Positions 7,303 through 10,034 of a DNA stretch of 10,337 bases are shown piece by piece. Position numbers and translations under genes: made by a program. Source of the DNA: an uncultured Ruminococcus sp. GTDB taxonomy: Bacteria; Bacillota_A; Clostridia; Oscillospirales; Acutalibacteraceae. The stretch spans positions 1 to 10,337 of the forward strand of contig CACYEJ010000219.1 of assembly GCA_902773395.1 (NCBI GenBank), written 5' to 3'. The number at the start of each line of letters is the position of its first letter. The stretch's first letter is position 1. The notes under the pieces were generated by a model that saw nothing but the letters and a program-made list of their open reading frames with translations, had not been told where the DNA came from and made no database searches.

Positions 7303-8277
7303 TTAATCCTCAGAAGTAATTTCTTTATAAAACTCCGAGAAATCCTTTCTGCCATTCTTTGTAAAAGCAATAGCAGATCTTGGGTGCTGATTAAGCAGCC
7401 CTGTCAAGAGATACTGTACATCATAGCCCCAAACAACGCCGTCCTCACGAAGCTTATTAATATGCTTTTCAATAAACTTGAGAACAGGGTACACATCATA
7501 TTTCGGATTGCGGAGAAATCCCAAAAGCAGCTCCATTGCGCAGTTGCCGGCGCCTCTGCCCATTGACGAATACGTAGCGTCCAGCCAATCAACGCCTACG
7601 CCGACAGATTCTACCGTATTTGCAAAAGCAAGCTGCAAATTGTTGTGAGCGTGAATTCCAACCTTCTTGCCGTACTTTGCAGCAAAGTTGAGGTAAATAT
7701 CATCAAGTCGGGCAATCTGCTCAGGATACAGCGAACCAAAGCTGTCTACTACATAGAACACATCAACCGGAGTTTTGCCGAGAATATCGAGCGCTGCGCT
7801 AAGCTCGCTTTCACGCGCGTTAGAAATCGCCATAATATTGCAGCTTGTCTGATAGCCTTTCTTGCAGGCGTCCTCAATCATGTCAACAGCCTCTGGTATC
7901 GTGTGGATATATGTAGCAACACGGATAAGGTCAATTGCACTATCCTTTTTGTCGATGATGTCATTCTTATAATCGCATCTGCCAACGTCTGCCATTACAG
8001 CAATTTTAAGGTCGGTGTTATTATCGCCTACAACAGCTCTGATGTCGTCCTCGCTGCAGAATTTCCATTTGCCGAATTTGTCAACATCGAAAAGCTCCTT
8101 TGAAGCCTTGTAACCAAACTCCATGTAGTCTACTCCGGCTTTCAGGTTTGCTTGGTAAAGGTCACGTACAAATTCGTCTGTAAAGTAAAAATCATTTACC
8201 AATCCGCCGTCACGCAGCGTAGCGTCAACAACCTTTATATCCGAGCGGTAGTCAATTAATTCTGATACTTCTTTCAT
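7303..8277 (-). CDS. DRE-TIM (HMGL-like) aldolase domain protein, third gene of the SCIFF locus
   Basis: This 324-residue cytoplasmic metal-dependent TIM barrel belongs to the DRE-TIM superfamily, close to 4-hydroxy-2-oxovalerate aldolases. Key residues are D18-A-T-L-R22-D23-G-G, E53, the divalent-metal pair H209-A-H211-N-N, and G-R-G-A-G-N (240-245). The C-terminal W-G-Y-D (283-286) and N-Q-H-P-R (296-300) are typical of this aldolase group. The expected reaction is retro-aldol cleavage or condensation of a 2-keto acid with an aldehyde; the substrate is unknown. No acylating aldehyde dehydrogenase partner (DmpF/BphJ type) is nearby. ATG 8277 is chosen because AAAGGAAG lies just upstream; an in-frame TTG at 8295 would put that site inside the gene. 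It starts 21 nt after scfB, so it is co-transcribed with the maturase. Confidence 0.86.
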   Translation of the reverse strand: MKEVSELIDYRSDIKVVDATLRDGGLVNDFYFTDEFVRDLYQANLKAGVDYMEFGYKASKELFDVDKFGKWKFCSEDDIRAVVGDNNTDLKIAVMADVGRCDYKNDIIDKKDSAIDLIRVATYIHTIPEAVDMIEDACKKGYQTSCNIMAISNARESELSAALDILGKTPVDVFYVVDSFGSLYPEQIARLDDIYLNFAAKYGKKVGIHAHNNLQLAFANTVESVGVGVDWLDATYSSMGRGAGNCAMELLLGFLRNPKYDVYPVLKFIEKHINKLREDGVVWGYDVQYLLTGLLNQHPRSAIAFTKNGRKDFSEFYKEITSED

Positions 8278-8298
8278 TATATTTCTTCCTTTCAAATT

Positions 8299-9687
8299 TT
8301 ATTCATCATTATTTGCTTCTGCTGATTTTGCTGTCTGCATCATTATTGCACATTCAATTCTCTTTTTAAAGAGCTTGCAGCCGTACTCGTAAACACCTGT
8401 AATCGAACCTGTAGAATGATACGAATTTGCCGCACAGCCGCCGCTGCAATAGAGCTTTGCCCAGCAGTCACGGCACTCCTCTCTTGCGTAGGCATTACAA
8501 AGCTTAAACTCATTCTGAGCGTCCTTGTTCGTCACACCGTCCCAGATATTGCCGAGAAGATACTTATCATCTCCCACAAACTGGTGGCACGGATAAAGGT
8601 CACCCCACGGAGTAACTGCCATATATTCCGTACCCGAACCGCAGCCGGAAATCCTCTTGTAAATACACGGACCTGCTTTTAAATCAACCATATAATGATA
8701 GAAAGTAAAGCCCCTGCCCTCTTTCTCACGTTTAAGCATTTCCTTTGCGAGAATCTCGTACTGCTCGAAAAGCTTCGGCAAATCCTCCTCAGTCAACGCA
8801 TAGGGGTCATCGGGCTTACAGACAACAGGCTCCATTGAAAGCTCCGTAAATCCCAAATCCGCCATATGAAATATATCATTGGTGAAGTCAACATTATTAT
8901 GTGTAAACGTGCCGCGCATATAGTAGCCCCTGTCGCCACGCTTCTCGATAAAATGCTGGAACTTAGGCACAATTGTGTCATAGCTGCCCTTTCCGTTGAC
9001 CGTTTTCCTCAGGTGGTCATGAATCTCTCGTCTGCCGTCAAGGCTCAAAACAACATTGTGCATTTCCTTGTTTGCAAAGTCGATTACGTCATCATTCAGC
9101 AAAACGCCGTTTGTGGTGAGCGTAAAGCGGAAATTCTTATTATGAATTTTCTCAATTTCACGACCGTATTTAACAATCTCCTTGACAACCTCCCAGTTCA
9201 TCAGGGGTTCGCCGCCGAAGAAGTCAACCTCAAGATTTGTTCTTGTGCCGGAATTTTCAATCAAGAAATCAAGCGCTCTTTTGCCCACTTCCAGTGACAT
9301 TAACGCTCTGTCGCCGTGATATTTACCCTGACTTGCGAAGCAGTATTCACAGTTTAAATTGCAGGTATGTGCAACGTGCAGGCATAGAGCTTTGATAACG
9401 GTGTTTCTTTTTTTCAGGTCAAAAGCCTTATCGGCGTACACGTCCTCGGTGTAGAGTTTTCCGTTTTCTTTTAAAGTATCAATATCATCGAACAGTTCAA
9501 TCAGCTCATCTTTTGTAACGTCCTCTTTATCGCTGTACTTATCAAGCAGGAAATTTATTGTTGTTTCCTTATCATTTTTTTCGTACATTTGGATAGCGTC
9601 AAAAGCAACCTCGTCAACGTAATGTACGCTGCCGCTGAATACATCTAGTATGATATTATATCCGTTTAATTTATAGCAATGTAACAT
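8299..9687 (-). CDS. scfB: SCIFF radical SAM/SPASM maturase
   Basis: This 462-residue radical SAM enzyme modifies the SCIFF precursor encoded just upstream, forming Cys-to-Thr thioether bridges (ranthipeptide chemistry). Residues about 1-90 are the precursor-binding region expected for an RRE-like domain. The radical SAM core follows: C109-x3-C113-x2-C116 binds the SAM-cleaving 4Fe-4S cluster, and G-G-E-P is at 158-161. The C-terminal SPASM region carries the auxiliary-cluster cysteines, including C341, C349, C367, C397, C405, C408, C414, C418 and C437. Length and motifs match the family characterised as CteB and Tte1186. The ATG at 9687 has only a modest AGGAA site and follows an intercistronic terminator, so the enzyme should be made in lower amount than the peptide. 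An intact maturase beside a divergent precursor suggests the locus is active. Confidence 0.93.
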   Translation of the reverse strand: MLHCYKLNGYNIILDVFSGSVHYVDEVAFDAIQMYEKNDKETTINFLLDKYSDKEDVTKDELIELFDDIDTLKENGKLYTEDVYADKAFDLKKRNTVIKALCLHVAHTCNLNCEYCFASQGKYHGDRALMSLEVGKRALDFLIENSGTRTNLEVDFFGGEPLMNWEVVKEIVKYGREIEKIHNKNFRFTLTTNGVLLNDDVIDFANKEMHNVVLSLDGRREIHDHLRKTVNGKGSYDTIVPKFQHFIEKRGDRGYYMRGTFTHNNVDFTNDIFHMADLGFTELSMEPVVCKPDDPYALTEEDLPKLFEQYEILAKEMLKREKEGRGFTFYHYMVDLKAGPCIYKRISGCGSGTEYMAVTPWGDLYPCHQFVGDDKYLLGNIWDGVTNKDAQNEFKLCNAYAREECRDCWAKLYCSGGCAANSYHSTGSITGVYEYGCKLFKKRIECAIMMQTAKSAEANNDE

Positions 9688-9721: not shown

Positions 9722-9764
9722 GCAAAAAAATAATGCCGTTTACGCTTATTCGAATAAACGGCAT
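9722..9764 (-). terminator. Intercistronic terminator between scfA and scfB
   Basis: A 10-bp perfect stem, ATGCCGTTTA (9733-9742) with TAAACGGCAT (9755-9764), has a 12-nt loop and is followed on the minus strand by TATTTTTTT (seven T at 9730-9724). It lies about 55 nt past the scfA stop and 35 nt before the scfB start. No promoter is evident between them, so scfB probably depends on partial read-through. The loop contains an inner palindrome, TTATTCGAATAA (9746-9757), that offers a competing fold. Confidence 0.85.
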
Positions 9765-9818: not shown

Positions 9819-9971
9819 TTACTTACTGCTTGTGCATTTCTCACACTGCTGATTAGCAACGCCGCAAGATGTTTTGCAGGCAGACTGACAAGAAGTCTGG
9901 CACTCACCGCAGCCGCCAGTCTTAGCACTCTTCTGCAAATCACGAGTATCAATTGTATGAATTCTTTTCAT
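9819..9971 (-). CDS. scfA: SCIFF (six cysteines in forty-five) ranthipeptide precursor
   Basis: This 50-residue ribosomal peptide precursor is recognised by the family start M-K-R-I-H-T-I-D-T and the core G-G-C-G-E-C-Q-T-S-C-Q-S-A-C-K-T-S-C. Cysteines are at 21, 24, 28, 32, 36, 43 and 46, so there are seven rather than six. Position 37, the thioether-accepting Thr of the characterised peptide (Cys32 to Thr37), is Gly here, and the tail C46-T47-S-S-K is extra. Remaining threonines in the core are 26, 34 and 47. The ATG at 9971 has an ideal AAAGGAGGT 9 nt upstream and a strong promoter. The scfB maturase follows. The biological role of SCIFF peptides is unsettled; quorum-type signalling has been proposed for ranthipeptides. 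The open frame antisense to it is a shadow. Confidence 0.95.
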   Translation of the reverse strand: MKRIHTIDTRDLQKSAKTGGCGECQTSCQSACKTSCGVANQQCEKCTSSK

Positions 9972-10005
9972 AAGCGGACAACCTCCTTTATAAAATCACA
10001 TTTTC

Positions 10006-10034
10006 AGTCTATCATAATTTGTCGATTTTGTCAA
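10006..10034 (-). promoter_or_regulatory. Promoter of the scfA-scfB-aldolase operon
   Basis: On the minus strand there is a perfect -35 TTGACA (10029-10034), a 17-nt spacer, and -10 TAGACT (10006-10011) preceded by TGA, an extended -10. Initiation near 9999 gives a leader of under 30 nt carrying AAAGGAGGT (9981-9989). It predicts strong expression of the peptide. Confidence 0.82.

Follow-up and report, generated by a model that had tools for sequence, protein, structure and literature searches.

The locus raises the question of where the thioether bridge of a SCIFF peptide would lie when the threonine at position 37 is absent. In the window, which is the whole stretch of 10,337 nucleotides analysed from a contig of an uncultured Ruminococcus sp., the scfA gene was translated to a peptide of 50 aa, MKRIHTIDTRDLQKSAKTGGCGECQTSCQSACKTSCGVANQQCEKCTSSK, with cysteines at positions 21, 24, 28, 32, 36, 43 and 46, a glycine at position 37, the segment GVAN and the tail C-T-S-S-K (Table 1). 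The first-pass annotation had described these residues in a SCIFF precursor without giving a strand; they are confirmed here on the minus strand, and translation of the plus strand over the same positions yielded no SCIFF peptide. It had also claimed that a variant bridge topology must follow, and the premise of this claim was the older Cys32-Thr37 assignment alone.

The bridge end is disputed in the reviewed work, with Thr37 on one side and Thr34 on the other. A Cys32-Thr37 bridge was obtained in vitro for Tte1186a and CteA in two studies, as reviewed (PMC8326336, PMC8172795), whereas CteA produced with CteB in E. coli carried a Cys32-Thr34 bridge with a C-gamma bond, according to the same reviews, which cite Hudson et al. 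2019. The SCIFF maturases are described there as making C-gamma bonds. According to the account of the CteB structure in one review, Cys21 of the precursor extends to the open site on the first auxiliary cluster.

Table 1. Features of the scfA-scfB locus, in coordinates of the window
Feature	Position	Strand	Basis
SPASM cysteines of ScfB, Cys341 to Cys437	8377..8667	-	Cys in 98.7 to 100% of rows
Tyr330-His331-Tyr332 of ScfB, shortly ahead of the first SPASM cysteine (Cys341)	8692..8700	-	row comparison
scfB, radical SAM/SPASM SCIFF maturase, 462 aa	8299..9687	-	TIGR03974, 776.7 bits (cut-off 425)
Radical SAM motif of ScfB (residues 108-116), TCNLNCEYC; Thr108 and Asn112 are the Gly37-branch forms	9340..9366	-	row comparison
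Terminator- or attenuator-like hairpin in the scfA-scfB gap, 10-pair stem ATGCCGTTTA/TAAACGGCAT, then TTTTTTT	9724..9764	-	fold, sequence
scfA, SCIFF (six-cysteine ranthipeptide) precursor of the Cys32/Gly37 type, with Cys46	9819..9971	-	TIGR03973, PF13165, family comparison
Cys46 codon (seventh cysteine)	9834..9836	-	translation, pooled loci
Gly37 codon; Thr there in 300/312 members of the phylum sample	9861..9863	-	translation, family comparison
Thr34 codon, acceptor reported for CteA in E. coli	9870..9872	-	Thr in 508/508 pooled loci; reviews
Cys32 codon, thioether donor reported for CteA/Tte1186a	9876..9878	-	translation; reviews
Thr26 codon	9894..9896	-	Thr in 136/136 Thr37-less loci, 188/372 others
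Ribosome-binding site of scfA, AAAGGAGG, 10 bases before the ATG	9982..9989	-	sequence
Promoter-like TTGACA-17-TAGACT with TG, upstream of scfA	10006..10034	-	10/12 consensus match only

ScfA was assigned to the SCIFF precursors by TIGR03973 (83 bits, E 1e-23, cut-off 50) and PF13165 (82.9 bits, cut-off 27), and it has the six cysteines of the family (21, 24, 28, 32, 36 and 43), with Cys46 as an extra one. In its alignment to the family-built profile all 45 columns were occupied with zero gaps and each residue number equalled its column number, so numbering from the start Met is safe. The threonine needed for a Cys32-Thr37 bridge is replaced by glycine, and Thr37 is no requirement of the TIGR03973 model. 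Both residues of a putative Cys32-Thr34 bridge are present. A search of solved structures with the peptide sequence gave chance-level matches only (E 0.096 and 0.15). The GVAN segment had been counted as part of the oddity, but in the order draw 56 of 61 peptides with Thr37 have Ala39 as well.

The scfB gene adjoins scfA, as is expected for a SCIFF maturase of TIGR03974, and its product scored 567.1 bits against NF040492, the "not ScfB" exception model, below the cut-off of 855. The CteB structure 5wgg matched residues 1-451 of ScfB with 574.8 bits; the alignment begins at residue 1. The predicted structure of ScfB, built on 26 rows, had a mean pLDDT of 91.5 and showed strands and helices at the N-terminus, where a leader-binding (RRE) domain may lie. 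The CX3CX2C motif (Cys109, 113 and 116) and the SPASM cysteines (341, 349, 367, 405, 408, 414, 418 and 437) are all present; at these cluster positions, 98.7 to 100% of the rows in every group have Cys. Among the named relatives, uncultured Ruminococcus genomes are closest, with an ScfB identity of 89% in L001.

Gly37 is rare across the phylum and common near the window. An even draw of 398 genomes across the phylum to which Ruminococcus bromii belongs was searched with the family model, taking one locus each (a second match in each of the genomes G248 and G266 was not taken). A match was found in 313 genomes, and 312 loci had a real SCIFF peptide; L173, a 22-bit match in a 1138-residue frame, was no SCIFF and was dropped. 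Position 37 was Thr in 300, Gly in 11 and Ser in 1 of these loci, while Thr34 was present in all 312 and Cys32 in 311. Position 36 was Cys in 289 loci and Ile or Leu in 23, the latter being five-cysteine SCIFF peptides with segments such as SITVSNQ and SLTVGNQ (for example L124, L135, L115 and L122). In a draw of 127 genomes from the same order, 91 matched, with Thr37 in 61, Gly37 in 28 and Ser37 in 2.

Closer to the window, Gly37 was found in 78 of 78 readable peptides among the named loci, which were the best 80 of 573 confirmed loci, picked as closest to the ScfB of the window (L064 and L077 were excluded, as no SCIFF was found there). Of 5242 protein relatives, 120 were listed; the 118 of these that were anchorable all had Gly37 too, and 116 had the arrangement Cys32-Thr34-Cys36-Gly37. 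The pooled set comprised 508 loci, after 34 of 542 peptide rows, which were re-fetched loci, had been removed, and at least one genome, that of R. bromii (L031 and L081), was counted twice in it. It held 372 Cys32/Thr37, 128 Cys32/Gly37 (the window included) and 8 Ser32/Ser37 loci. Because the named loci were picked by closeness to the ScfB of the window, the Gly37 shares in the 80 named and 508 pooled loci are biased; the phylum and order draws are less so. The idea that a nearly universal Thr37 is absent here holds (300/312), but its absence is not special to the window, and uniqueness of Gly37 is rejected by the family counts. A sequencing or frame artefact can be set aside with practical certainty, as the same residues occur in 128 loci and in the protein relatives.

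The loci without Thr37 form one group. In a FastTree phylogeny of 416 ScfB proteins there was one change between Thr and non-Thr at position 37, and the 118 Thr37-less rows made up one clade (support 100) with no Thr37 row inside it. An IQ-TREE analysis of 92 of the 450 distinct ScfB proteins (8 Ser32, 34 Gly37 and 50 Thr37) gave this clade 100/99, the 34 Cys32/Gly37 rows 100/100 and the 8 Ser32/Ser37 rows 99/94; its long branches and two joins with warnings lie among distant Thr37 rows, away from the clade node. Rows with an ScfB under 400 or 415 residues were excluded from the trees. One change on 416 rows and the 100/99 support would point to a single loss of Thr37. The Cys32/Gly37 branch comprises Ruminococcus, Faecalibacterium and their kin, and scfA of the window belongs here. 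In the second, Ser32/Ser37 branch the donor Cys32 is lost too. The leader residues Thr9-Arg10 were found in 12 of 12 Thr37-less against 2 of 300 Thr37 peptides of the phylum draw; for the order draw the corresponding counts were 23 of 30 and 0 of 61. By sequence, the window carries an ordinary scfA-scfB pair of a Thr37-less SCIFF branch: a precursor, a maturase with its cluster cysteines, and membership of the clade.

Whether Gly37 and the extra cysteine co-occur in one clade had been raised by the first-pass annotation, and they do, on both trees (100; 100/99) and in the pooled loci. A cysteine after Cys43 occurred in 0 of 372 Thr37, 67 of 128 Gly37 and 5 of 8 Ser37 pooled loci, in 0 of 300 Thr37 against 4 of 12 Thr37-less peptides of the phylum draw, and in 0 of 119 Thr37 protein rows. 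The tail cysteine changed 12 times among the 118 tree rows. The extra cysteine would thus be a mark of the Thr37-less clade that comes and goes; as it is not rare there and is unstable, this argues against a fixed extra bridge, and Cys46 was ruled out as a fixed bridge partner. Thr47, once suggested as an acceptor, was rejected: position 47 is unconserved, with Leu, Lys, Glu, Ser or other residues in clade members, and 9 of 128 Gly37 loci have a Thr anywhere within the first eight residues of the tail. Of the alternative acceptors that had been proposed, Thr34 is the best, in the light of the reviews, and Thr26 a possible one. Because a Cys32-Thr34 bridge is reported for CteA and Thr34 is present here, as in all 508 pooled loci, the claim of a necessarily variant topology is weak.

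We therefore favour, at a probability of about 0.55, a Cys32-Thr34 bridge like that of CteA in E. coli, with Thr37 dispensable in the clade. The ScfA leader would be bound by ScfB, whose 5'-deoxyadenosyl radical would take a hydrogen from the methyl group (C-gamma) of Thr34, and the sulphur of Cys32 would then be joined at this C-gamma in the register of CteA in E. coli. Gly37 would be no acceptor, Thr37 having become dispensable once, at the base of the clade, and Cys46 may be an accessory cysteine, free or disulphide-forming. The family and maturase assignment, the conserved cluster cysteines and the presence of both Cys32 and Thr34 in all 128 Gly37 pooled loci would support this bridge, as would the bridge reported for CteA in E. 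coli and the single origin of the Thr37 loss. Position 38, beside Gly37, changed 5 times inside the clade but 2 times outside, where the tree is seven times longer, which would fit a relaxed 37-38 end in the clade. Invariance of Thr34 as proof of the acceptor was dropped, as Gln29, Ala31, Lys33 and Ser35 are equally invariant (508/508); Cys21 was also found in 508 of 508 loci.

Several observations speak against the Cys32-Thr34 bridge. Thr34 is retained where its putative partner is gone, in all 8 Ser32/Ser37 pooled loci; two Gly37 protein rows (P0003 and P0220) lack Cys32 too. Outside the clade Thr37 showed 0 changes over 118 ScfB tree-length units, apart from the basal loss, and such stasis would be unneeded for a mere bystander. 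According to the reviews, the bridge found in both in vitro studies was Cys32-Thr37, and the clade-specific changes of ScfB, some of them at the radical SAM motif, could mean altered selectivity. P0003 is a two-core peptide of the Ser32/Gly37 type with Ser32 in both copies; whole or partial tandem SCIFF cores were also seen in L073 and in the proteins P0005, P0049 and P0075.

With a strict filter, two ScfB sites proved to be fixed differently in the Gly37 branch, 108 with Thr for Asp and 112 with Asn for Arg, and both sit in the radical SAM motif (HDCNLRC to HTCNLNC); most Thr37 members have Asp and Arg there. A looser filter, using near Thr37 relatives only, gave 17 sites, including 108 and 112. 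The Ser32 branch retained Asp108 in 9 of 9 rows. Two further sites lie 11 and 9 residues ahead of the first SPASM cysteine: position 330 was Tyr in 127 of 128 Gly37 and 8 of 9 Ser32 rows, position 332 was Tyr in 128 of 128 and 9 of 9, and the near Thr37 rows had Phe at both (74/74); among the 239 far Thr37 rows, Tyr occurred at 330 in 40 and at 332 in 16. A placement of residues 328, 330 and 332 on one strand face found no support in the model, in which 328-329 are strand and 330-332 helix. The stem of the Thr37-less clade is long (0.26 changes per column), so many ScfB sites changed there, and the clade-specific changes are consistent with altered substrate handling without proving it. Two further cysteines of ScfB were also observed: Cys397, eight residues before Cys405, in 98% of Gly37, 3 of 3 Ser37 and 3% of Thr37 rows, and Cys290 in 90% of Gly37, 3% of Thr37 and no Ser37 rows.

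A bolder reading is less likely than the Cys32-Thr34 bridge with a dispensable Thr37: one switch of register in the family, from Cys32-Thr37 to Thr34 or Thr26 in the gut clade, with a retuned ScfB active site, and a loss of Cys32 allowed later in one branch, where the bridge would come from, for example, Cys36. In a narrower form, which seems unlikely, the Thr37 members would have Cys32-Thr37 and the clade would use Thr26 as acceptor or Cys36 as donor, so that Cys32 became dispensable and was subsequently lost in the Ser32/Ser37 branch. Cys32 and Thr37 share a fate, as would be understandable if the two formed a unit outside the clade and the register had changed within it. Cys32 was absent in 0 of 372 Thr37 against 8 of 136 Thr37-less pooled loci, and the tree had 0 changes of Cys32 outside the clade and 1 inside. 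Recurrent loss of Cys32 was seen, among the matches listed, only where Thr37 was already gone. Of the 976 rows from a search with a Ser32/Ser37-type peptide, 120 were listed and 114 of these were new; all 114 have Thr34, and 88 are without Cys32. The 88 (within P0123-P0236) comprised 81 Ser32/Ser37, 1 more of that type with Ser36, 4 Ser32/Ala37, 1 Arg32/Ser37 and 1 Ser32/Gly37, and none had Thr37. The names of the sources of this branch include Anaerovoracaceae and Anaerovorax. One phylum-draw peptide (L394) has Ser32 and Ser37, and ScfB adjoins in all eight such loci (L394, L460, L475 and L516-L520). However, each of these events is a single branch, so the co-occurrence is of little statistical weight, and none of the 128 Gly37 loci has lost Cys32. 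A Thr37 query with Cys32 replaced also found, among the 120 listed of 2309, four stray Thr37 peptides without Cys32 (P0249, P0321, P0336 and P0345). They are likely due to error or decay, since each is a single member sequence on a single contig, Thr34 and Cys36 are missing as well from P0345 (Ser32, Ser34, Phe36, Thr37), and Cys43 is missing from P0321.

The candidate acceptor and donor of this narrower register switch give a similarly mixed picture. Thr26 was found in 188 of 372 Thr37, 128 of 128 Gly37 and 8 of 8 Ser37 loci, and on the ScfB tree it changed 44 times outside the clade and 0 times inside; the number expected inside was between 4.2, judged from near relatives, and 6.2, judged from all. 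This freeze is a hint only, because Gln25 and Glu44 are equally frozen within the clade, as is Gly22, and because the clade includes protein rows with Ala26 (P0077) and Pro26 (P0159). Cys36 was lost 3 times on the tree, each time among Thr37 rows, which would suit a new role as donor in the clade, but two Thr37-less protein rows have Ser36 (P0045 and P0124). The changes D108T/R112N and F330Y/F332Y of ScfB would also fit a switch.

It is improbable that the clade makes no Cys32 thioether at all, with free or metal-bound cysteines at work or a decaying system. A subclade has lost Cys32 with the other core cysteines in place, and the extra cysteine, in the pooled loci, is confined to this clade, which would both agree with such a state. 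On the other hand, ScfB is intact with every cluster cysteine and adjoins scfA, and core residues 20 to 36 changed in the clade 2 times (one at 23, one at 32) over 16.6 tree-length units, so that the core is under strong selection.

A bond of the Cys32 sulphur to the alpha carbon of Gly37, as in sactipeptides, which would keep the place of the bridge and change its chemistry, is very improbable. In its favour, Gly and Ser are thioether acceptors in streptosactin. Position 37 is Gly, Ser or Ala (4 rows) in the Thr37-less peptides seen, and radical SAM enzymes forming alpha-carbon thioethers are described in a review. Against it, ScfB belongs to TIGR03974, a family with C-gamma bonds according to the reviews, and the Ser37 branch lacks Cys32.

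The gap between scfA and scfB is 131 bases long and as a whole folds with a z of -2.97; a terminator scan of the window did not list its hairpin. A partial stop at this hairpin, favouring the precursor over the enzyme, is plausible in the window and not general among the relatives, because, by a rough rule, 34 of the 76 examined have a hairpin plus T run. Right after scfB, an HMGL-like aldolase (7303-8295, minus strand) weakly resembles 4-hydroxy-2-oxovalerate aldolase, under the cut-off; it was ruled out as part of the system, since 8 of the 70 relatives with over 1.5 kb of downstream sequence have it. A protein with the class A beta-lactamase fold (PF13354; 6154-7155, minus strand) is probably no resistance gene, with 60.4 bits against a class A beta-lactamase cut-off of 200. 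A prepilin-like protein with an N-terminal methylation motif (PF07963) is encoded at 2551-2991 of the minus strand.

ScfA of the window shares with SCIFF/ScfA (TIGR03973, PF13165) its length, the six cysteine positions, the QSACKTSC core and the adjacent ScfB; it differs from most members in Gly37 for Thr37, the additional Cys46, the Thr9-Arg10 leader and its place in the Thr37-less clade. The maturase family and domain plan are those of CteA/CteB (thermocellin, Clostridium thermocellum) and Tte1186a/Tte1186 (Caldanaerobacter). As far as the reviews present these precursors, Cys32 and Thr34 are shared with both, while Thr37, present in CteA and Tte1186a, is absent here. ScfB has T, N, Y and Y at 108, 112, 330 and 332, where CteB has D, R, F and F. 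Freyrasin (PapA/PapB) is a ranthipeptide made by a related radical SAM/SPASM enzyme, but ScfB scored 283.6 bits against the PapB model, below its cut-off of 340, and freyrasin has six Cys-Asp C-beta links according to the reviews, in contrast to the ScfA core, which has no Asp.

This locus is a clade variant of a known family and no new kind. The passages of the open-licence literature consulted contain no description of the Thr37-less clade, the SCIFF consensus of the pig-gut paper (PMC7738495) being a figure outside those passages. In one such passage all clear ScfA homologues are said to appear functionally equivalent (PMC5300114), and the Thr37-less branches are a place to test this equivalence. 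The conflict between Thr34 and Thr37 could be tested on the natural Gly37 and Ser32 peptides, with no need for site-directed variants.
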